A stretch of 64,000 nucleotides of DNA from Mycobacteroides chelonae (GTDB lineage Bacteria > Actinomycetota > Actinomycetes > Mycobacteriales > Mycobacteriaceae), in NCBI RefSeq assembly GCF_016767715.1, contig NZ_CP050145.1, positions 2,914,001 to 2,978,000 on the forward strand, in the 5' to 3' direction. Numbering within the stretch: position 1 is the stretch's first letter; every line of letters starts with the position of its first letter. Made by a program: the position numbers and the translations under genes. The notes beneath the pieces were generated by a model, which made no database searches, was not told the origin of the DNA, and saw only the letters and a program-made list of their open reading frames with translations. Below, piece after piece: positions 8,119-64,000 of the stretch.

Positions 8119-9040
8119 GCGCTGGGCTCTCCTCACACGGTGCGACGTCCACCGACACTTTGATCGTGCTGCTTTCGGAGTCGGTGTAGATGATGCCGCG
8201 CAGCGGCGGTACATCGGCGTAATCGCGACCCCACGCGACGGTGACGTACCGCTCGTCGGCGACGGTGTCATTCGTCGGGTCGAACGCGACCCATCCGTCG
8301 GGTGGAACCCACACCGCCGCCCAGGCATGGGTGGCGTCGGCACCGACGAGGCGGGGCTGCCCCGGCGGCGGATTCGTCGCCAGATAGCCGGAGACGTAAC
8401 GTGCCGCGAGTCCCTGGGTGCGCAGCGCCGTGACCGCCATGCGCGCGAAATCCTGACAGACGCCTTCCCCCGCGGCCAGCACCTCGCTGACCTTCGTGGA
8501 AATGGTGGTCGATCCCGACCGGTACTGGAAATCGCGATAGATCCGGCCCATCAGATCCACGACAGCCTCCCCGAGCGGACGTCCTGCTGTGAAACTCACT
8601 GCGGCGTAGGCCTCTACGTCGTCGGTAATCTCCGGAGGCACTAAATCCAGCACGAACTCGGTGGCCAGCGCTCCCGCCCCCGACGATTCCGCATAGGCCG
8701 GACGGGCCAGCTCCCATGCCTGCTCCCACCCCGCGCCGGGTGGTGACGGGGCACTGACGTCGACGATGGAGCGGGCAGTCACGCTCAGCTCGCGGTGTGG
8801 CGTGGTGACGTGGAAGTACGAACTGAGGTTCCCGTAGAGGTCTCTACCGGTGGAACTGTCCGAGGGTTCCGGCTCGACGATCAGCTCGTTTGATTCGCAA
8901 CGTTGCCAATCGGTGTCACGTGGCGTGAGATAGCCACGGCCATAGGAGCTTGTGACGTCGTCGGAGTATTGGTACAGGGTGCGGTGCGTCACCTGATACC
9001 GGGTGACCGCTGAGCCGCTTGGGCCAAGACCGTCGGTCAC
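8111..9040 (-). CDS. transglutaminase-like cysteine peptidase family protein (Rv2569c-like)
   Basis: 309 residues. The Bact_transglu_N-type start (RYQVTHRTLYQYSDDV) is followed by the transglutaminase core with Cys195 (GEGVCQDFAR), His238 (ATHAWAAVW) and Asp254 (FDPTND), a complete triad. GTG 9040 is chosen because a strong GGAGG lies 5 bases before it and because it forms a GTGA overlap with the stop of the upstream ATP-grasp gene. These proteins are generally peptidases or amide-bond-forming enzymes encoded beside ATP-grasp/alpha-E proteins. No signal peptide is seen, so it is predicted cytosolic. Confidence 0.9.
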   Translation of the reverse strand: MTDGLGPSGSAVTRYQVTHRTLYQYSDDVTSSYGRGYLTPRDTDWQRCESNELIVEPEPSDSSTGRDLYGNLSSYFHVTTPHRELSVTARSIVDVSAPSPPGAGWEQAWELARPAYAESSGAGALATEFVLDLVPPEITDDVEAYAAVSFTAGRPLGEAVVDLMGRIYRDFQYRSGSTTISTKVSEVLAAGEGVCQDFARMAVTALRTQGLAARYVSGYLATNPPPGQPRLVGADATHAWAAVWVPPDGWVAFDPTNDTVADERYVTVAWGRDYADVPPLRGIIYTDSESSTIKVSVDVAPCEESPAHA

Positions 9041-15626: not shown

Positions 15627-15683
15627 CTCACCAGAGTGCCACCGCTGCGCCGGGTTCTCAGGTTGCACTGTCAGGATGACTGG

Positions 15684-52413: not shown

Positions 52414-53421
52414 TCAGGCCGAGCGCGCCCGGAAGGTATTCCGGTAAGCGAGCGGGGAGACCCCGGTGAGCCGACGGAACTGCTCCCGGAAATTCGCAGG
52501 TGAACCGAACCCCACCTCGCGCCCGATCCACTCCACGGAGTCCGCCGAACATTCCAGCAGCTGCTGGGCATGACGGACCCGCACGCCGGTGAGCCACTGC
52601 ATCGGCGTCTGTCCCGTTTCGGCCCGAAATCGCCGGTTGAGGCTGCGCACGCTGGTTGATGCCTGGACCGCGAGGTCCTCCAGGGAAAGTTCTCGATGGG
52701 CGTTGTGCTCGATCCACGCCAGCATCTCGCCGAGGCCTGCCTCGGTGCGCTGACGGTTCCGGATGACGTATTGAGCTTGACCGCCGTCCCGGTGCAGCGG
52801 CGCCACGGCCACCCGGGCCGCCTCGGCAGCGACCGCCGTGCCGTGATCGCACGTGACCATGTGCAAACACAGATCGAGCCCGGCCGAAGCCCCGGCGGAG
52901 GTGAGCACCTGGCCCTCGTCCACGTACAGCACATCGGCATCCAGGCGTACGTCCGGATACATCTGCCGAAACAGGTCAGCGGCGAGCCAGTGCGTGGTGG
53001 CACGCTTGCCGTCCAGAATTCCGGCCTCGGCGAGCGTGAAGGCTCCGGCGCAGATGGAAGCGATGCGCGCACCGCGGGCGTGCGCGGCCTGCAGTGCCTC
53101 GATGACGCCGTCGGGCGTGGGCGCGGTCACGTCGTTGCGCGCGGGCACCACGATCGTGTCGGCGTTCGAAAGAGCCTCAAGCCCAAGATCTGTGGCGATG
53201 CCGAACGGTCCGGCAGAGACGACGGGTGCCGTGCCGCACACCCGCACCCGGTAGGGCCGGGTGCCGTCGGCGAGGTGCACGCGGCGAAACACCTCCACAG
53301 CGGTCGCCAGGTCGAACCCGATGGTGTCGGGAAGGGCGAGGACGAGTACCGAGTGAGGCTCGCCCGAACGACCCAAGAGCACCGAGTGAGGCTCGCCCGA
53401 ACAGCCCGGAACGGAATGCAT
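52414..53421 (-). CDS. GlxA-family regulator (DJ-1 domain plus AraC HTH)
   Basis: 335 residues. An N-terminal DJ-1/PfpI-like domain (about 25–190; SICAGAFTLAEAGILDGKRATTHW) is followed by an AraC HTH (about 225–330; ELSLEDLAVQASTSVRSLNRRFRAETGQTPMQWL, FGSPANFREQFRRLTGVSP). ATG 53421 gives MHSVPGCSG. The first residues contain an 11-residue tandem duplication (SGEPHSVL twice), encoded by a 22-base direct repeat; the true start could therefore be at a GTG inside the repeat. It is divergent from a DJ-1 enzyme gene, its probable target. Confidence 0.85.
   Translation of the reverse strand: MHSVPGCSGEPHSVLLGRSGEPHSVLVLALPDTIGFDLATAVEVFRRVHLADGTRPYRVRVCGTAPVVSAGPFGIATDLGLEALSNADTIVVPARNDVTAPTPDGVIEALQAAHARGARIASICAGAFTLAEAGILDGKRATTHWLAADLFRQMYPDVRLDADVLYVDEGQVLTSAGASAGLDLCLHMVTCDHGTAVAAEAARVAVAPLHRDGGQAQYVIRNRQRTEAGLGEMLAWIEHNAHRELSLEDLAVQASTSVRSLNRRFRAETGQTPMQWLTGVRVRHAQQLLECSADSVEWIGREVGFGSPANFREQFRRLTGVSPLAYRNTFRARSA
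53348..53402. repeat. 22-base direct repeat, period 33, in the GlxA-like gene 5' end
   Basis: ACCGAGTGAGGCTCGCCCGA starts both copies (53348–53369 and 53381–53402). The 33-base period equals 11 codons, so the duplication keeps the reading frame and duplicates SGEPHSVL near the protein N-terminus. Confidence 0.85.
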
Positions 53422-53505
53422 GCGGCGAGCGTAACTCGTTGTTGGCAATATCTCGTTGGGTACTGTCTATCTGGCCACTTCTGCCGCCGTGATCGGCCGA
53501 CAACC

Positions 53506-54249
53506 ATGGCAATCATGCAGATAGCGATCCTGGCGTACCCGGGCATGACGGCGCTCGACGCGATAGGCCCCTACGAAATGCTGAGGGGGCTGCCCGAGGC
53601 CGAGTTTCGATTCGTCTGGCACGAGCCGGGGCCGATAGTGACCGATAGCTGTGTCCTGGTGGTCGGCGCCACGCATTCCTTCCAGGAGACCCCGGCACCG
53701 GACATCGTCCTGATCGGCGGCTCGATACCGGCCACCATGAGCACCGCCGCCGACGACGGCGTTCTCACCTGGCTGCGGAAGGTTCACCTGGGCACGACGT
53801 GGACCGCATCGGTATGTAGCGGGTCGCTCATTCTCGGTGCCGCCGGGATCTTGCGGGGAAAGGACGCCACCTGCCATTGGGCCGGGCAGCGGGTGCTCAC
53901 GACCTTTGGGGCCAATCCCCAGCGGGACAAGCGAATCGTCCGTGACGGCAAGGTGATTACCGCCGCAGGGGTGTCCGCAGGGCTCGATCTTGGTCTGTGG
54001 CTCGTCGGCGAGATCGCCGGACAGCCGCGCGCCGAGGCCACTCAGCTGTGCATCGAATACGACCCGCGGCCGCCATTCGATACCGGCCACATCAGCAAGG
54101 CCTCGGCCCGCAACAAGGCAGATGCGGTGCTGATGATGAAGGGCATGATCTCGGCACGCGATGCCGGCGCGGAGGTCGTGGCGGGCTCGAAGGTGCTGTG
54201 GGCGAACGTCATCGACCGGGTGCGGCGAAGGTCAGCCGCCAAGCCCTAG
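53506..54249 (+). CDS. DJ-1/PfpI-family protein (isonitrile hydratase-like)
   Basis: 247 residues. Nucleophile elbow TASVCSGSLILGAAGIL with Cys104, N-terminal MQIAILAYPGMTALDAIGPYEML and VITAAGVSAGLDLGLWL fit the cysteine-hydratase branch near isonitrile hydratases. ATG 53506 or ATG 53515 (MQIAIL) are both possible. It is divergent from the GlxA-like regulator (84-base gap) and overlaps the convergent membrane protein gene by 18 bases. Substrate unknown. Confidence 0.84.
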   Translation: MAIMQIAILAYPGMTALDAIGPYEMLRGLPEAEFRFVWHEPGPIVTDSCVLVVGATHSFQETPAPDIVLIGGSIPATMSTAADDGVLTWLRKVHLGTTWTASVCSGSLILGAAGILRGKDATCHWAGQRVLTTFGANPQRDKRIVRDGKVITAAGVSAGLDLGLWLVGEIAGQPRAEATQLCIEYDPRPPFDTGHISKASARNKADAVLMMKGMISARDAGAEVVAGSKVLWANVIDRVRRRSAAKP

Positions 54250-56877: not shown

Positions 56878-58242
56878 TCAGTCGCGGACGATGCCCTTGG
56901 TGCGCATCAAGAAGTCCGCGAGAAATCCGTCGTGTGGGACCTCGGGGTCCGCATACGACGTGAGATGCCTGCCGCTGTACACGTTGGCCACCGTAGGCTC
57001 GTTGAGCAGATCGTCGATCAGCTCCTCGTCCTTGGTAATCGCGTTGATCACCAAGGAATGCCGCAGCGGGGCAAGGCCGTCGGCGCGTGTCCACGGCGAG
57101 ACCCACACGCATGGGAACGCCAGCTCCGTGTTGAGTGGGCCGATGTCTGGTCGCGCCAGCAGGTGTACTGCCGGTCGCAGTACCGCCGAGCCGTCACCGA
57201 GGTCTGCGACCACCTGGTCGGCGCCCAGCAGCGCTGTGGTGCCGACAGATACGGCCGCCAGGTGCTCGGCATAGCGTCTGGCCGCCGCTATGGGCTGAGC
57301 TGGTAGCGCAGCACGTTCGTCGGTGATCGGAAGCGCGGGGATCGTCGCCAGCCTGGCGGTGATCGCTTCGGCCAGGGGTCGCGGATCGCCTTCGTAGAGA
57401 ACGGCGGTGGCGTTGGTGCAGGCCATCCCGCCCTGCCCGCTGATCGACTCGACGATGACGTCAAGGTAGTCGCGCCAGTCCTGTTCGGCGGTGATCAAGA
57501 TCTTGGTGCGGCCCGGCCCGTTCGTCAGCACCGTCGGGTCGTCGGCATAGCCGTCGACGACGTCTTGTCCCCCGTAGACGACGGCGAGGTCGGCGGCGGT
57601 GATGATCTCGGCCGCGCCCGCATGGTCGGTGGGTAGATAGAGGGCGTCTTCGGGCCGAAATCCGGCCTGGCGTAGGGCATTGACAAGCCGGTGTCCGGTG
57701 AAGGGTTCGCGCCGCGATGGACGGATTGCCACCCGGTAACCCACCGCCAGCGCCTGCGCCCACGTGCTGTGCACACCGGGGCTGTTCCCCGACGCGTGCA
57801 CGGCGAGCACCTCACCGCGGCGCGCCCACACCGCGCTTCCTCGCCGGGTGCGCTCGTCGCGCCAGTCGATGGCGGCGCCCATCGGGCGGGCAGGCGCCAC
57901 CGAATCGGCCGCGACCCGTACCGCGTCCGCGACACCACGGGCACTGGCCCGTGCAATCGCGATCGGTAGCCCCGACACCCGGCTGACCACCTCGACGTAT
58001 TGCTCGAAGCCGAGGCCGCCGAGCTGCGCGTCGACGAAGATCGCGGCAGCGTCTGCCAGCGCGGCGTTACACCGATCGTGTGGGAGGGGCTTGACCGTGC
58101 GTTGCGCCTGAATGCTGCGGCTCACATACAGCGGGGGCGCGATGCTCAGCTCGGCGACCGGCGCTCCGGCCACATCGGTGATCACCTCACGGTTTCGGGT
58201 GCGGTACTCGCCACCGGGGCCAAGGGCGTCAAGTGCGATCAC
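56878..58242 (-). CDS. LuxC-like acyl reductase (aldehyde-dehydrogenase fold)
   Basis: 454 residues. ALDH-fold protein with GEVLAVHASGNSPGVHS (about 143–160) and the catalytic cysteine in SGQGGMACTNATAVL (Cys275), the arrangement of LuxC-type acyl-CoA/acyl-enzyme reductases that produce aldehydes with NADPH. GTG 58242 is 2 bases after the stop of the adjacent ligase gene. LuxC normally takes acyl groups activated by LuxE, and the adjacent gene is LuxE-like. No luciferase genes are present, so the aldehyde serves another purpose. Confidence 0.82.
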   Translation of the reverse strand: MIALDALGPGGEYRTRNREVITDVAGAPVAELSIAPPLYVSRSIQAQRTVKPLPHDRCNAALADAAAIFVDAQLGGLGFEQYVEVVSRVSGLPIAIARASARGVADAVRVAADSVAPARPMGAAIDWRDERTRRGSAVWARRGEVLAVHASGNSPGVHSTWAQALAVGYRVAIRPSRREPFTGHRLVNALRQAGFRPEDALYLPTDHAGAAEIITAADLAVVYGGQDVVDGYADDPTVLTNGPGRTKILITAEQDWRDYLDVIVESISGQGGMACTNATAVLYEGDPRPLAEAITARLATIPALPITDERAALPAQPIAAARRYAEHLAAVSVGTTALLGADQVVADLGDGSAVLRPAVHLLARPDIGPLNTELAFPCVWVSPWTRADGLAPLRHSLVINAITKDEELIDDLLNEPTVANVYSGRHLTSYADPEVPHDGFLADFLMRTKGIVRD

Positions 58243-58244
58243 GA

Positions 58245-59336
58245 TCAGTAAACGCCCTCGATCACCGGCTCACCCTCAAAGTTGGCGACCGGGACCACTT
58301 CACTGACGGAATCACCAATCTGATTGTCCGGGCCATTCCTTCGAATCGCAGTGTCGCGTTCGAGGTTGTTCGGAATGAACATGCCCTTGCTGATGTGATT
58401 CATCACCACCTGGCCGCGCTCACCGTAGGGCACACACTCCCCCGTATCGGGATCGATCACCCAGAACACCACGTAGGGTGAGCGCGGATCGAAGACGAAG
58501 GCGTCCCCGTCAACGCGAGTCCTTGCCTGGGACAAGATCATTGTGCTACCGAAGGCCATCGCGATCTCGGCCGTCGGGAAGATCTCGCGGAGCAGATCGA
58601 GAGTGTCCAGGTCTACGTGGGCGCCGCTGATCAGTATGTAGCGGATCTTCTGGTTGACCAGGTCCACCATGGCGTCGTCGCGGGCGATGGCGCCCAGCAG
58701 CGGCGGGCTGGTGTGCAGGTTGGCGACCCGCTGGGTCTGCAGCACGAACCTGGCCTGCTCCAGGACGTGCTCGACATACCCAGACACTTCGGCGGTGGCG
58801 TTGCGTGCGGAGAGTTTCTTGACCCACCGTGGGTCGAGGTCCACCGCATAGAACACCGAACCCAGCCGCTCGCTGACCGCACGCGAGAAATGACCGACCC
58901 CGTGCGGGCCACTGGGCATGAGGAACAACAGACCCTGCCCTGCTACGAAGCCGCCGGCGGTGAAGTCCTCGACCTGCCATTGCGTGACCTGCTCAACCCA
59001 ATCGGGTAGTTGCGCCGTGCGTTTGGGTGCACCGGTGGTGCCACCGGATTCGAAGATCTTGGGCACCGGCGCCGGGGTTCCATAGCCGCGCGGGATGAGG
59101 TCCTCGACGGGTGCATCACGCAGCTCGTTGACCAGGTTCGGGAACAGCCGAAGGTCCTCGAAAACCTTTACGTCGGTCAACGGGTCGAAGTTCAGGGTCT
59201 GCGCGGTGCGCAACCAGAACGCCGACCCGGTGTCCTCGCCGAAATGCCAGGCGATCGCGGCACGCAAGTAGGCCTCGGGATCTGGGACGGGCCCGGTTCG
59301 CGGGACGTCCAACAGCGAGAGGTCGATCTCAGCCAT
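58245..59336 (-). CDS. LuxE-like/phenylacetate-CoA-ligase-like adenylating enzyme
   Basis: 363 residues. P-loop of acyl-adenylating enzymes is FESGGTTGAPKRT (about 95–107); a later block VVFWVIDPDTGECVPYGERGQVV corresponds to the adenylate-forming motif with Tyr/Gly. Short length and no full C-terminal lid domain fit the LuxE (acyl-protein synthetase) group. ATG 59336 (MAEIDLSLLD) is preferred over a start 45 bases upstream. It is immediately before the LuxC-like gene. 93 gene-free bases separate it from the upstream reductase gene. Confidence 0.8.
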   Translation of the reverse strand: MAEIDLSLLDVPRTGPVPDPEAYLRAAIAWHFGEDTGSAFWLRTAQTLNFDPLTDVKVFEDLRLFPNLVNELRDAPVEDLIPRGYGTPAPVPKIFESGGTTGAPKRTAQLPDWVEQVTQWQVEDFTAGGFVAGQGLLFLMPSGPHGVGHFSRAVSERLGSVFYAVDLDPRWVKKLSARNATAEVSGYVEHVLEQARFVLQTQRVANLHTSPPLLGAIARDDAMVDLVNQKIRYILISGAHVDLDTLDLLREIFPTAEIAMAFGSTMILSQARTRVDGDAFVFDPRSPYVVFWVIDPDTGECVPYGERGQVVMNHISKGMFIPNNLERDTAIRRNGPDNQIGDSVSEVVPVANFEGEPVIEGVY

Positions 59337-59429
59337 GCGGCCATCCTGGCGCAGGAAACGCGATCCTAGAAGGAGTTTCACCGCCGTTCGTGGCGCGTTA
59401 ACCCTGCCGGATCGCTGTGGGGCTGTCTA

Positions 59430-60443
59430 CTAGCGGACTTTCGCTGCCGTGCGATCGTCGATTTCGCGGCGCAGTTCTGGCCCCGACCACTTCTCACCGG
59501 ATGCGGTTGCCTGGTGGATCAGGCTGACGAGCGCGGCGTTGACCGGCGCACTGACGCCGAGCTTCTTGGCAAGCTCGACTACTTCCCCGTTGATGTAGTC
59601 GATTTCGGTCGGCCTGCCACGGGTGAGGTCGTCCAGCATGGACGAGCGCGCCTGAGGGTCAATCTCGACCATCTGCCGAGCCGCCCGGGCGAACACGGCG
59701 TCCGGCATCCGCAGCACCCAGGGCATGAACGCGAGCGGCGCCGCAAGAGGACTGACCACTGCCTGGCCACTGCGGCGCAGCAGCCCCAGTGCCTCGCGTT
59801 GCGCGGCGGCCAGGACCAGACGGTAGTCCCGCTGTCCCAGTTCGGCTTTCAGCGGCAAGCCCGAGAGTGCGTTGACCGCATTGTTGAGGTTGACCACGAG
59901 CTTTCCCCACTGAACCGCCGACATGTCCTCACGCACGGCGGTAGGCAACCCGCTCTCGGTCAGTGCCTGTGCCAGGGACTCCGCACCCGTAGAGATCGAC
60001 AACTTTCCCTGCGTGCCCTGATGAAAGTGCGCCGGCCCGACCTGCGCGACGTTGAAGCCGACCATTCCGGTAATGACGCGGTGCTGCGTGACGTATCGCG
60101 ATATCTCGGTGGGGTTGCGTATCCCGTTCTGCAGACTGACCACCACAGCTCCGGGCCGGAGCCGGTCGGCCAGCGACGCCGCCATCTCCGCGGTCGCGGC
60201 CGATTTCACCGTCACCAGCACCACATCGGCGGCGCGGACCGCATCGATGTCTTCGGAGAACACGCATTTGTCTCCGGGAATCGTCGCCGACCAACCCAGA
60301 TAGTCCGAAAGAGCGAGACCACGCTCGGTGATCGACTCGCCTAGGGCGGCGCGGCCGATGTACACCAAGTCATGCCCGGCGGCCTGCAGCCTGCCGCCCA
60401 CATAACAGCCGATGCTTCCGGCCCCCGCGACAGCGATTCTCAT
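59430..60443 (-). CDS. ketopantoate reductase-family (ApbA/PanE) oxidoreductase
   Basis: 337 residues. NADP-binding Rossmann motif VAGAGSIGCYVGG (6–13 GxGxxG), catalytic-lysine region VQWGKLVVNLNNAVNALSG, and C-terminal RGRPTEIDYINGEVVELAKKLGVSAPVN. The family reduces 2-oxo acids such as ketopantoate. In this accessory operon it probably acts on a pathway 2-oxo acid rather than in CoA synthesis. ATG 60443 overlaps the stop of the lactonase-like gene (ATGA). Confidence 0.85.
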   Translation of the reverse strand: MRIAVAGAGSIGCYVGGRLQAAGHDLVYIGRAALGESITERGLALSDYLGWSATIPGDKCVFSEDIDAVRAADVVLVTVKSAATAEMAASLADRLRPGAVVVSLQNGIRNPTEISRYVTQHRVITGMVGFNVAQVGPAHFHQGTQGKLSISTGAESLAQALTESGLPTAVREDMSAVQWGKLVVNLNNAVNALSGLPLKAELGQRDYRLVLAAAQREALGLLRRSGQAVVSPLAAPLAFMPWVLRMPDAVFARAARQMVEIDPQARSSMLDDLTRGRPTEIDYINGEVVELAKKLGVSAPVNAALVSLIHQATASGEKWSGPELRREIDDRTAAKVR

Positions 60444-61309
60444 TGGGCTCCAAACTCAACGCTCTGCGCGGTCGCGCGGGCACGATCCCAATAGTACGGA
60501 TTGTGCGAGTTGATGACCTCCACATCGTCGCGCGTGACCAGCTCACGTAGCTGTTGCGCGTTGTACAGCCGCGAGGTGGCATCGGCCTGCACCAGACTCT
60601 GAAACACCTTGAACACCAACGGGCATCGCGGATCTGTGAGCATTTCATCGGGGTGCATGAAGGCATCACCCGCGTGTACGAGCCACCGCGGGCGCCCGAT
60701 GCCACCGGTGTCGATCACCACGCCGACATGCCCACGGCTATGCCCCGGAAGCGGAATGATCGCGATCTCCTCGGGCAGACCGTGGAGTTGCCGCACGGCG
60801 CGGAAGCCGAACCACTGATCGCCACCGATCGAATACTCGGACCAGCGGTCACCTTCTCTACGTCCCATGAGTTCGGGCTGCCCGCTGTAGCGCACCTTGT
60901 CGTGAAGTGTCAGCTGCGCACGTATGGATTCTGCTTCGATCGCGTGCACATGCAAACGCGCGTTGGGAAAGTCGTCGACTCCGCCGACGTGATCGTGGTC
61001 GTGATGGGTGAGCACGATGTCGGTGACATCGGCAGGGTCATAACCGAGTGCCTGCACCTGGCGCACCGCTGCCTCCGATTCGGCGAACCGAGGGTTGAGC
61101 AGAAGCTTGAGGGGACGGCCGATCCTGGCCACCGGATCGGCGACATCGCGCAGGCCGAATCCGGTGTCGACAAGCAGCAGCCGCGTTCCGGTGTCGACGA
61201 GCAGACAATGGCAAATCAGCCGGCCGCGCTGCCAGGGTGCTCCCGCGCCTTCCATGAGCCGTTTCCCGACGGGCGCCATCGTGCCACAGTTCAGGTGATG
61301 AATGCGCAT
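60440..61309 (-). CDS. N-acyl-homoserine-lactonase-like metallo-beta-lactamase-fold hydrolase
   Basis: 289 residues. MBL fold with LTHHDHDHVGGVDDF, IIPLPGHSRGHVGVV and HAGDAFMHPDEM; the closest family by layout is the AiiA/AttM lactonase group. The metal motif reads HxDxDH, with the second His replaced by Asp, a variant seen in some MBL subfamilies. ATG 61309. Substrate unknown; lactone or ester opening is inferred. It overlaps the reductase gene and follows RidA by 2 bases. Confidence 0.84.
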   Translation of the reverse strand: MRIHHLNCGTMAPVGKRLMEGAGAPWQRGRLICHCLLVDTGTRLLLVDTGFGLRDVADPVARIGRPLKLLLNPRFAESEAAVRQVQALGYDPADVTDIVLTHHDHDHVGGVDDFPNARLHVHAIEAESIRAQLTLHDKVRYSGQPELMGRREGDRWSEYSIGGDQWFGFRAVRQLHGLPEEIAIIPLPGHSRGHVGVVIDTGGIGRPRWLVHAGDAFMHPDEMLTDPRCPLVFKVFQSLVQADATSRLYNAQQLRELVTRDDVEVINSHNPYYWDRARATAQSVEFGAQ

Positions 61310-61311
61310 GG

Positions 61312-61704
61312 TTAATCCTCTGACCCGGAAAGCTTCGCGAGCGCATCTATCTCCACCAGCAGCCCGGGCGGGAGCCCACCAAAAAGGGTGGTCCGCGCCG
61401 GGTAGGGCTTGCTGATGGTGTCCTCGAACGCCTTGTTCAGCTCGGCGAATCCTTCTGGTGCGTGAAGGAATACCCGCAGCATCAGCACATCGCCGAAATC
61501 GGCTCCGGCCGCATTCAAGATCGCCTCGATGTTGCGCAATGCCTGGACGGTCTGCGCGTAGACGGTCTCTCCGGCCAGCGAACGGGTCTGGGCATTGATC
61601 CCCACTTGCCCGGACACCTGCAGGGTGTCACCAATGCGTATGGCTTGCGAGTAGGCGCCGACGGGATCTGGCGCCGCGTTGGTTTCGATCTGAGCCTTGG
61701 CCAT
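61312..61704 (-). CDS. RidA-family enamine/imine deaminase
   Basis: 130 residues. Starts with IETNAAPDPVGAYSQAIRIGDTLQVSGQVG, has the substrate-binding arginine in KPYPARTTLFGGLPPG (Arg104) and the terminal VEIDALA. It hydrolyses reactive enamines/imines formed by PLP enzymes or amine oxidation. AAAGGAG lies 6 bases before ATG 61704. In this operon it suggests that an imine intermediate occurs. Confidence 0.87.
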   Translation of the reverse strand: MAKAQIETNAAPDPVGAYSQAIRIGDTLQVSGQVGINAQTRSLAGETVYAQTVQALRNIEAILNAAGADFGDVLMLRVFLHAPEGFAELNKAFEDTISKPYPARTTLFGGLPPGLLVEIDALAKLSGSED

Positions 61705-61737
61705 CCGAACTCCTTTGCTACCAAATGAATGAGACGG

Positions 61738-62781
61738 TTATGAGGTGGGTCCGCTCGAGGACGGGCGGGGAAGGGTTTCTCTCAGGACGCGCAGGGCATT
61801 GCCGCCGAGAACCCCGGCTGCCCCGGACGCATCGAAGCCGGTGCGCAACAGTGCGTCGATCAGCGACGGAAATCCGGTGGGCCCGTCGAACCCCGGGACA
61901 TACCTGGGTATGCCGTTCATATCCGTTCCAATGCAGAGGTGCTCGGGGCCGACCAGCTCTGCCAGGTGCGAGGCGTGCCGAGCGAATTCATCCAGGTCTC
62001 GCATGCCGATGCCGCGAAATCCCATCGGCCACAATCCGATCAGGCCGCCGGTGGCGGATATCGCACGCGCCTCCTCGTCGCTGATGTAGCGCGGAAATTC
62101 ATGGACCGCCAATGCGCCGGTGTGCGAACTGACCACCGGTGCGGACGTCTGATCGCAGACGGCCAAAGTGGTAGCCGCGTCGGCGTGCGCCAGATCTATC
62201 AGCATGCCCAGCCGGTTGGCTTCTGCGACAACCTCTTTACCGAGGGCGGTCAGACCCGAGGAGTATCGTCCGGACCGCACTGCCCTGCTGCCCCTACTCC
62301 CGGATAGCGACGTACCGATCGTTCCAAGGGCGTTGTCCGCGTAGTGCACCAGACCCAGCACCCGCACCCCCATGCGGTGAAGGTCGATCAGCCGATCCGG
62401 TTGTGCTCCCACCACATCGGCGCCTTCGACACCGAGCATGACTGTGGCAGTGTCGCCTGCTTCGATCTGCTCTACGGTCTCCACCACCGCGATACCCGCC
62501 GCGGAGGCCTCGGCCCGGGCCAGCTCCAGCTGGGCCTTCACGCCATTCCATGGCGAGCGCAGTCGCCATGCGGTACCCAGCAATGCGTCCCCGACTGCGG
62601 TGACGATAGCGAGGTTCACCTTGCCCTTGGGCAACTGCGACAGCGGTTCGGACTGCATGTCTATTGTCTTGGCGCCCAATGTGCGCAGCCATCGCGGCAC
62701 AATGCTCAGGCCGTGGGTGTGCATGTCGATGGTCAGCGCGGTGTCGTTGAGCTTCCTGGCTTGCTCGACCGTGGTGCTCAT
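61738..62781 (-). CDS. membrane-dipeptidase (M19) family amidohydrolase
   Basis: 347 residues. TIM-barrel M19 family: IDMHTHG (His21, His23), MLGVEGADVVGAQPDRL (Glu), VLGLVHYADNALG, MLIDLAHADAATTLAVCD, VVSSHTGALAVHEFPRYISDEEARAISATGG, and IGTDMNG near the end. No signal peptide despite the family name, so it is cytosolic here. ATG 62781. Substrate could be a dipeptide, lactam or N-acyl amino acid. Confidence 0.86.
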   Translation of the reverse strand: MSTTVEQARKLNDTALTIDMHTHGLSIVPRWLRTLGAKTIDMQSEPLSQLPKGKVNLAIVTAVGDALLGTAWRLRSPWNGVKAQLELARAEASAAGIAVVETVEQIEAGDTATVMLGVEGADVVGAQPDRLIDLHRMGVRVLGLVHYADNALGTIGTSLSGSRGSRAVRSGRYSSGLTALGKEVVAEANRLGMLIDLAHADAATTLAVCDQTSAPVVSSHTGALAVHEFPRYISDEEARAISATGGLIGLWPMGFRGIGMRDLDEFARHASHLAELVGPEHLCIGTDMNGIPRYVPGFDGPTGFPSLIDALLRTGFDASGAAGVLGGNALRVLRETLPRPSSSGPTS

Positions 62782-62806
62782 ATCGGGCGCCTCGCGATTC
62801 CGGGCA

Positions 62807-63622
62807 TCATTGGAGGGCCTCGGGGGCGGTTTTGATCACGTCGTCCCAGAGCGGCCGGAACTGGAACCATCCGGCGGCGGGGGTGCCGATCTGGTTGTAG
62901 ACCGAGACGGCGGTGTCATGGTCGATCGATCGTGGTTCACCAGCGGCCATCGCGAGCAGCTGCGCCTGGCAGGAGCGTTCCATCGTGATGAACCACCAGG
63001 CGGCCTCCGCCACCGAGTGGCCCACGGTAAGCAGCCCGTGATTCTGCAAGATCACCGCCTTGGTGGACCCGAGCGCGGATCCGATCGCCCGGCCTTCTTC
63101 GAGGTCGCTAACCACGCCGCGGTAGTCGGTGTACACCGCGTGGTCTTCGTAAAAGGCGCATGCATCCTGCGTGATGGGCAGTAGCGGCTGCCCCAGCGAT
63201 GAGAACGCCTTGCCATGTATCGAGTGCGCGTGCGCCGCGGCGATCACATCGGGCCTGGCCTTGTGCACCTCGGAGTGAATGCAGAACGCCGCCCTGTTCA
63301 CCGGCCGGCTGCCGGTGATCACGTTGCCGTCGTGATCGACCTGGATCAGGTCGGACACGGTGATGTGCCGGAAGTTCATGCCGAAGGGGTTCACCCAGAA
63401 CGTATCGGGGAACTCCGGGTCCCGGACGGTGATGTGCCCGGCCACCCCTTCGGAGAAGCCGAATGCCCCGAATATCCGGAATGCGGCTGCCAACTCACGC
63501 AGTCGGCGATCACGCTCCTGCTCGACCGTCGCCGCCGGGGCCGGACTCATCGGGACGGCATCGGCGGAACCGACCATGTACGCGGACAATCCCTCGTCCA
63601 CCACAACATCTCCGGAGGTCAT
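62807..63622 (-). CDS. class II aldolase/adducin-family protein
   Basis: 271 residues. Metal ligands: IAAAHAHSIHGKAF (HxH) and ILQNHGLLTVG (His), plus the upstream FGFSEGVAGHITVRDPE block whose Glu is the usual catalytic residue. Members are aldolases, epimerases or decarboxylases. ATG 63622 (MTSGDVVVDEG) has AAGGTGGG closely upstream. It is the first gene of the seven-gene minus-strand operon, 25 bases before the dipeptidase gene, and has an operator-like inverted repeat 14 bases upstream of its start. Confidence 0.85.
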   Translation of the reverse strand: MTSGDVVVDEGLSAYMVGSADAVPMSPAPAATVEQERDRRLRELAAAFRIFGAFGFSEGVAGHITVRDPEFPDTFWVNPFGMNFRHITVSDLIQVDHDGNVITGSRPVNRAAFCIHSEVHKARPDVIAAAHAHSIHGKAFSSLGQPLLPITQDACAFYEDHAVYTDYRGVVSDLEEGRAIGSALGSTKAVILQNHGLLTVGHSVAEAAWWFITMERSCQAQLLAMAAGEPRSIDHDTAVSVYNQIGTPAAGWFQFRPLWDDVIKTAPEALQ

Positions 63623-63636
63623 GTACCCACCTTTCA

Positions 63637-63650
63637 ATACATATCTGTAT
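63637..63650. promoter_or_regulatory. operator-like inverted repeat before the class II aldolase gene
   Basis: ATACA-TATC-TGTAT has perfect 5-base arms around 4 bases, 14 bases upstream of the aldolase start. The same TATCTGTAT core recurs at 63826–63834, which supports binding by the divergently encoded TetR protein. Confidence 0.6.
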
Positions 63651-63821
63651 CTGATGATCACAAGCTACCCCCGCTGCGGAAAACCCGTCAAGAGGAGCTG
63701 CATCCGAAGATGCTGGCACGAATAATGCTTGATTACAGATCAACCAGATGACTGATCGTCGCGAATCGCCCTACCGCCATCTCGCGGTTTCTCCAGCTAT
63801 TTTGCGTGCACTCACTGTAGG

Positions 63822-63835
63822 ATACGTATCTGTAT
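63822..63835. promoter_or_regulatory. operator-like inverted repeat before the divergent TetR gene
   Basis: ATACG-TATC-TGTAT, within GATACGTATCTGTATC (63821–63836), matches the site at 63637–63650 except for one arm base. It is 41 bases upstream of the TetR start. An adjacent GAAA-ATACG-TTTC repeat lies at 63837–63849. Confidence 0.6.
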
Positions 63836-63876
63836 CGAAAATACGTTTCACGGATCACACCACAGAAGGGGCGCCC

Positions 63877-64000
63877 ATGCCGACCGGTTCGACGCGCCGA
63901 CGCGAACAGACCCGCGCCCGCCTGATGGAGGCCGCACTCGACGTGTTCGCCGACCGAGGATTCCATGGCGCCAGCATCGAGAACATCTGCGAAAAGGCAG
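63877..64000 (+). CDS. TetR-family regulator, 5' part only (runs off the window edge)
   Basis: First 41 codons of a TetR regulator: MPTGSTRRREQTRARLMEAA then LDVFADRGFHGASIENICEKA, the first two helices of the HTH. AGAAGGGG lies 6 bases before ATG 63877. It is divergent from the seven-gene operon, with two matching inverted repeats in the 254-base gap, so it is the probable repressor of that operon and of itself. Confidence 0.88.
   Translation, partial: MPTGSTRRREQTRARLMEAALDVFADRGFHGASIENICEKA

Follow-up and report, generated by a model that had tools for sequence, protein, structure and literature searches.

A seven-gene locus of Mycobacteroides chelonae that probably comprises two separate units, one of them an EhpF/EhpG-type carboxylic acid reductase pair

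Does a run of seven closely spaced, co-oriented genes encode one pathway, or have two systems come to lie side by side? The question is raised by a locus in the stretch of Mycobacteroides chelonae DNA analysed here and called the window (64,000 nucleotides; contig NZ_CP050145.1 of assembly GCF_016767715.1, forward-strand positions 2,914,001 to 2,978,000). The original prediction described an operon in which a LuxE/LuxC-like carboxylate-to-aldehyde step is coupled to a lactonase, a dipeptidase, RidA, a reductase and a class II aldolase. Our analysis makes it likely that the locus holds two functionally and regulatorily separate units, head to tail, which are neighbours in one mycobacterial group. 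The five genes for an aldolase-fold protein, an M19-like hydrolase, RidA, an MBL-fold hydrolase and a ketopantoate-reductase-family enzyme (KPR) are called unit A, and the LuxE-like/LuxC-like pair unit B. With the same confidence, which attaches to the two-unit reading as a whole, unit B is an old, resident mycobacterial two-gene carboxylic acid reductase of the EhpF/EhpG type. Judging from homologues, unit B most likely reduces an aryl carboxylate to the aldehyde, and unit A is most likely an inducible catabolic or detoxifying operon. Below, L002 denotes the window's own locus and all other L-numbers denote loci or stretches of relatives.

All seven minus-strand open reading frames (ORFs) predicted at 56878-63622 are present in the ORF listing, and Pfam and NCBIfam profiles place them as class II aldolase-like (PF00596), M19 (PF01244), RidA, MBL fold, ketopantoate-reductase family, AMP-binding and Aldedh superfamily. 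They are real and under purifying selection, with omega of 0.08-0.17 for all seven against L125, and of 0.055-0.19 for the six present in L123, where the MBL gene is absent. The most likely start of the luxE-like gene is Met16 of its listed ORF (59336): in two relatives, codon 14 or 15, immediately ahead of this residue, is an in-frame stop. With this start, 93 bp separate KPR from luxE, while the gap between the luxE-like and luxC-like genes is 2 bp and those within unit A are -4, 2, 33 and 25 bp. The tiny gaps or overlaps originally reported are thus found within each of the two groups but not between them, and uniformly tight spacing is rejected, all the more because 0.6 kb lies at the same junction in L122.

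The labels LuxE-like and LuxC-like, kept here for convenience, did not hold as family assignments. Neither protein gave a reported match to its Pfam family, PF04443 for the former and PF05893 for the latter, at a limit of E 10 with filters that drop most matches above ~0.1, and luciferase-type LuxC/LuxE membership is rejected on this ground. A different locus in the same genome is recognised by the LuxE profile (134 bits), and the LuxC profile, which matches nine of 14 controls, finds two other loci in the whole genome (25.1 and 23.4 bits; cut-off 21). The LuxE-family protein in question is encoded at 4808500-4809516 of the genome, far from this locus. With the family profiles, the ligase of unit B scores 23.2 bits against AMP-binding, below the cut-off of 29.9, and the reductase 31.1 bits against Aldedh (cut-off 23). 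Against EhpF (3l2k/3hgu), the ligase scores 259 bits over residues 6-363 of 363, which is its full length. The adenylating gene is followed directly by the gene for a reductase of the aldehyde dehydrogenase (ALDH) fold, as in EhpF/EhpG or GriC/GriD. PMC11278526 names ehpF and ehpG in a table of phenazine operons, and PMC10179220 describes GriC/GriD as a two-protein aryl-acid reductase acting via acyl-AMP. Cys275 and Cys378 of the ALDH-fold protein are kept in at least 97% of the 64 rows whose called ORF is no shorter than 440 amino acids, and Cys275 is probably the catalytic cysteine. By analogy with these homologues, the EhpF-like protein would use ATP to convert an aryl or heteroaryl carboxylate into the acyl-adenylate, and its ALDH-fold partner would accept the acyl group, probably on Cys275, for reduction by NAD(P)H to the aldehyde. 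The predicted carboxylate-to-aldehyde step therefore survives to the extent that a two-protein reductase is well supported by homology, but it is of the EhpF/EhpG rather than the LuxE/LuxC type.

This pair is old and independent of unit A. In 248 genomes of the genus, searched at E<=1e-60 with KPR as the marker for unit A, a LuxE-like protein occurs in 87 and KPR in five. In all five, KPR is no farther than 0.6 kb from luxE, and 82 of the 87 LuxE-positive genomes have no KPR. The co-occurrence proposed earlier as a check on the single operon does not hold across the genus, in which the LuxE-like gene usually stands without KPR. This modular distribution, like the family placements and the conserved sites, was computed directly. 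A further scan for LuxE found 92 relatives, from which 80 loci were kept. Of these, 73 have a luxC-like gene in the same orientation no more than 200 bp away, and three (L052, L054 and L077) have it on the opposite strand; the luxC match is partial in L070 and in two pieces in L068. The remaining four gave no luxC match, and three of them (L043, L074 and L080) are stretches that stop at or just past luxE. Unit A genes were found at only three of the 80 loci, 75 of which hold at least 5 kb upstream.

The start of luxE also carries its own conserved signature. Excluding loci with a short upstream part or a late match start, 79 upstream regions were compared, the window's included, and [CG]AGGAT stands just ahead of the luxE start in 68 of them, as against a mean of 2.7 and a maximum of 7 in 200 shuffles; the 68 boxes come from related sequences and are not 68 independent events. 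TTG is found at a spacer of 17-18 in 26 of the 68, and only six times over the remaining spacers between 10 and 25. A separate word, GTTAAC, is present in the 120 nt ahead of the luxE-like start at 16 of the 79 loci, again including the window.

Which acid might such a pair reduce? A protein search of plasmids matched 28 records, eight of which were opened, and the pair lies inside a phenazine cluster in three of these regions (L118, L119 and L137). Identities of the LuxE-like and LuxC-like proteins in these clusters are 48 and 52% for Burkholderia ubonensis, 42 and 36% for an E. coli plasmid, and 35 and 33% for Pantoea agglomerans. In the other five regions, the pair is beside DAHP synthase genes (L120 and L138), by menaquinone genes (L121), or in L139 and L140 (unannotated). 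Trees were built from 33 LuxE-like and 30 LuxC-like rows, with midpoint rooting and with long branches flagged. All three phenazine rows fall on the mycobacterial side of the starred branch (97/89 for LuxE and 99/100 for LuxC), and L120, L138 and L140 on the opposite side. A proposal of low probability is that unit B serves in detoxification, turning exogenous phenazine-1-carboxylate, or some similar heteroaryl acid, into the aldehyde or alcohol. The three clusters and the tree positions of their rows favour this proposal. The phenazine would have to be external, since queries with PhzA/B, D, E, F and G matched none of the 81 LuxE loci (L002-L082) but did match the three phenazine clusters, which served as controls. 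A profile search of the whole genome for the PhzA/PhzB family (PF03284) also came back empty, but it missed its controls too and carries no weight. Weighing on the other side are the long branches and midpoint root of both trees, the count of three phenazine clusters among eight opened regions, the menaquinone neighbourhood of L121, and the position of L138, a Streptomyces protein that carries the annotation 'phenazine biosynthesis protein' although its LuxE row falls on the other tree side. Moreover, GriC/GriD use another aryl acid, according to PMC10179220. The open-access literature searched held no text naming both EhpF and 'mycobacteri'. An aryl carboxylate is the most likely substrate of unit B.

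Unit A forms a block of its own. In L126, the luxE side and the side of a GGDEF gene are joined directly: the alignments meet at positions 8414 and 13532 of L002, with 7 bp in common, and what is missing is a 5.1-kb block made up of the five genes, tetR and the final 15 bp of the GGDEF reading frame. A single gain is favoured because the carriers, represented in the trees by four, cluster together in each (97/96 for LuxE and 99/98 for LuxC), although one relative does not prove the direction. The six known carrier loci are L002, L122, L123, L124, L125 and L008. Three of them (L123, L124 and L008) lack the MBL gene, so that a lactone-opening step, part of the pathway first envisaged, looks optional. 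In L122, with LuxE-like and KPR proteins 96 and 98% identical to those of the window, the 0.6 kb between KPR and luxE holds a DUF4333 ORF.

The candidate regulatory sites of unit A are likewise its own. The tetR gene, divergent from the seven genes, begins at about 63877 and extends beyond the window's end; its start was chosen downstream of predicted operator 2, and the ATG of the aldolase-fold gene (ald2) was preferred because operator 1 would fall within the gene if it began at GTG 63661. When the 5.06-Mb genome was searched with ATACAGATAYGTAT, allowing up to two mismatches, five matches were returned. Two are exact and fall between tetR and ald2, a third is one of this pair read in reverse, and the last two, with two mismatches each, lie elsewhere. 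The backward control pattern gave one match. Strict ATAC-N6-GTAT occurs at least once in the tetR-ald2 gap of each of the six carriers, and at both places in four; L125 has one further copy elsewhere in its stretch. The 64-kb window holds no other copy, and hence none near luxE. Unit A is accordingly modelled here as a putative TetR-repressed operon.

Much of unit A is also found elsewhere without unit B nearby. An M19-RidA-MBL-KPR operon recurs in three other actinomycete loci (L117, L143 and L144), with the four genes collinear, and in one case on a plasmid. The latter, NZ_CP054208 of Rhodococcus qingshengii (L117), ranked first among 241 plasmid records that matched M19 and was the sole one opened. 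The stretches read of these three loci gave no aldolase or EhpFG match. Upstream of M19 in both L117 and L144 stands ATACGTTAACGTAT, and their TetR proteins are 42-43% identical to that of the window; no ATAC-N6-GTAT was found in the stretches read of L143, L129, L113, L141, L142 and L126. In L117, the pattern is also present, at 15674 and 15691, ahead of a gene for an FAD-binding dehydrogenase that adjoins tetR, which suggests a further regulon member. In a sample of 201 genomes of the family, M19-like proteins at E<=1e-60 occur in six, the own genome included. Besides the four-gene cores of L143 and L144, these are L113, where KPR is accompanied by a dienelactone hydrolase and M19; L141, where a dienelactone hydrolase lies close to M19; and L142, with M19 and no other core genes. 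In the sample of the order, one genome (G531) has M19 and MBL genes around another TetR. The literature searched yielded no publication with at least four of the five module terms.

Taken together, the distribution, the spacing in L122, the operators, the luxE box and the L126 site argue, if indirectly, against one seven-gene operon. A single shared pathway, with unit A supplying the acid and the LuxE/LuxC-like pair turning it into an aldehyde, is possible but unlikely. The coupling of all seven genes in one pathway, as first claimed, is not supported, and is disfavoured by the 82 of 87 LuxE-positive genomes of the genus that lack the KPR marker, by the absence of the block from L126, by the unit A cores that stand without the pair in L117, L143 and L144, by the separate candidate regulatory sites of the two units, and by the DUF4333 ORF and 0.6 kb that intervene in L122.

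Several observations nevertheless pull against two separate units, and some favour the single pathway directly. The units are adjacent and co-oriented in six of six carrier loci, as would be expected of a useful association, and the NovR-like aldolase-fold protein could provide an aryl acid. A scan of the KPR-luxE gap found no terminator-like site, so that read-through from unit A into luxEC could occur, and a consensus scan of the same gap found no sigma-70 promoter; its folding gives a z of -0.94. In the window the CAGGAT box is present, but a TTG -35 element at a spacer of 17-18 is not, and the AGGA of the box could equally be a ribosome-binding site. As for the block, L127 and L128 lack it but have other sequence in its place, so that the seamless site is seen in one relative, and the L126 site, with 7 bp common to its junction, could also be a deletion. 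The GC content of unit A genes is 0.62-0.66 against 0.651 for the window, and composition therefore gives no sign of foreign origin. Nor is the coherence of unit A itself universal: among 29 other KPR loci with flanks of about 1.5 kb, another unit A gene was found only in L084. No such gene was seen in L114-L116 and L130-L132, which hold relatives of KPR or MBL, and L143 is without both the operator and a match to tetR.

An improbable variant would combine the two units into a hybrid route, in which M19, RidA and KPR of the TetR-controlled unit A release a 2-oxo acid, oxidative decarboxylation by the NovR-like protein converts it into an aryl carboxylate, and the resident EhpFG-type pair, brought directly downstream, reduces this to the aldehyde. 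If true, two unrelated modules would have merged in one mycobacterial lineage into a new route that shortens and reduces acids. We retain the two-unit reading, and turn to what unit A by itself may do.

The M19-like protein scores 189 bits against a profile cut-off of 26. The first metal motif, H-x-D in renal dipeptidase, is H-x-H in 11 of 13 scripted loci; no pattern was detected in L008 and L141, but a separate reading of its stretch gives H-x-H for the L141 protein as well. RidA is just above its cut-off (TIGR00004, 106.6 against 106.25 bits). KPR scores 423.9 bits (cut-off 371) with PRK08229 / NF006083, which would make it a 2-dehydropantoate 2-reductase equivalog. For the aldolase-fold protein, the scores are 245 bits with 4xxf (annotated aldolase), 221 with NovR and 184 with TqaM. 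Its histidines are common to all three, and a Glu is common to NovR and TqaM and absent at the aligned place in 4xxf. NovR/CloR and TqaM are iron enzymes of oxidative decarboxylation, according to PMC13111500 and PMC12192607, and the aldolase-fold protein is possibly a non-heme iron decarboxylase too. From the homologues we infer the reaction roles and substrates in unit A, as we do repression by TetR. The M19-like and MBL hydrolases would cleave amide and ester or lactone bonds, RidA would hydrolyse a released enamine or imine to the 2-oxo acid, KPR would reduce a 2-oxo acid, and the NovR-like protein would carry out oxidative decarboxylation of a 2-oxo or 2-hydroxy acid. Plausible steps of unit A, listed here in arbitrary order, are thus hydrolysis, the removal of an imine, the reduction of a 2-oxo acid and decarboxylation.

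The KPR score could also point to degradation of pantothenate or pantolactone, in which the M19-like protein as an amidase yields pantoate, MBL opens pantolactone, KPR acts on ketopantoate and the aldolase-fold protein cleaves ketopantoate. We give this little chance: the KPR slot of L117 holds another subfamily, to which the L144 protein is close (80% identical to that of L117), there is no aldolase match in L117, L143 or L144, RidA has no role in such a scheme, and the family name of KPR is generic. The weakest proposal, that unit A inactivates N-acyl-homoserine lactone (AHL) signals, follows from the earlier naming of the MBL protein as AHL-lactonase-like and of a signal as a substrate for catabolism, and is rejected as highly improbable, since the resemblance to AttM and AiiA amounts to at most 54 bits against an equivalog cut-off of 390, the metal motif is HxDxDH in eight of eight aligned homologues where AHL lactonases (AiiA/AttM) have HxHxDH, and MBL is dispensed with in half of the carrier loci. 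Inducible catabolism or detoxification is the most likely role of unit A.

Coordinates of the two units and their candidate regulatory sites in the window
Feature	Position	Strand	Evidence
Unit B, EhpG/GriD-like ALDH-superfamily acyl reductase (originally LuxC-like)	56878..58242	-	Aldedh, 31 bits
Unit B, EhpF-like carboxylate-adenylating enzyme (originally LuxE-like)	58245..59336	-	EhpF 3l2k/3hgu, 259 bits
Conserved CAGGAT box, 6 nt ahead of luxE ATG, promoter-like (-10) or ribosome-binding	59343..59348	-	Upstream-region comparison
Insertion-like block, five genes and tetR	59414..64000, on to ~64530 past window		Missing in L126
Unit A, ketopantoate-reductase-family (ApbA/PanE, PRK08229) 2-oxoacid reductase, KPR	59430..60443	-	Pfam/NCBIfam
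Unit A, MBL-fold hydrolase, HxDxDH motif, not canonical AHL lactonase	60440..61309	-	Family profiles and motif
Unit A, RidA-family enamine/imine deaminase	61312..61704	-	Family profiles
Unit A, M19-like amidohydrolase, H-x-H at first metal motif	61738..62781	-	Pfam and motif
Unit A, class II aldolase-fold protein (ald2), near NovR/TqaM, possible non-heme iron decarboxylase	62807..63622	-	Similarity
TetR operator 1 (predicted), ATAC-N6-GTAT	63637..63650		Pattern search
TetR operator 2 (predicted), ATAC-N6-GTAT	63822..63835		Pattern search
tetR, 5' part	63877..64000, on to ~64506 past window	+	ORF at L002 12749-13507, TetR_N 52 bits

Elsewhere in the window, an AraC/DJ-1-type regulator (FtrA/GbdR-like) is encoded on the minus strand at 52414-53448, divergent from a DJ-1/PfpI-like ORF on the plus strand at about 53510-54249 (placed by eye).

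One seven-enzyme story is thereby replaced by two testable ones, and the substrate of either unit would reveal how environmental mycobacteria deal with aromatic acids or other foreign metabolites. Among known systems, the operon of L117, L143 and L144 shares with unit A the same four genes in the same order and, in L117 and L144, the operator pattern and a related TetR; it differs in its KPR, which is only 25-28% identical and in L117 belongs to another subfamily. NovR/CloR and TqaM are among the closest solved proteins to the aldolase-fold protein and have the H-x-H, His and Glu positions in common with it in alignment, whereas 4xxf, an annotated aldolase, scores higher (245 against 221 bits) and also has the His positions. 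With the bacterial LuxC/LuxE fatty acid reductase, unit B has a distant kinship, as suggested by the LuxC scores of its relatives in L119 (19.9 bits; cut-off 21) and L120 (13.8 bits), whereas the window proteins themselves gave no reported Pfam match. A LuxC-like protein, MelK, belongs to the mel2 locus of Mycobacterium marinum according to PMC1793995, and is noted by description only. GriC/GriD of grixazone biosynthesis has, by description, the same two-protein reductase design in a different pathway context. EhpF/EhpG, from D-alanylgriseoluteic acid clusters, differs in its setting, as no phz gene was found at 81 of 81 LuxE-like loci and the mycobacterial pair stands in several dissimilar gene neighbourhoods; it is like unit B in that the adenylating protein is directly followed by the ALDH-fold protein, in the 259-bit match, and in lying on the same side of the trees.

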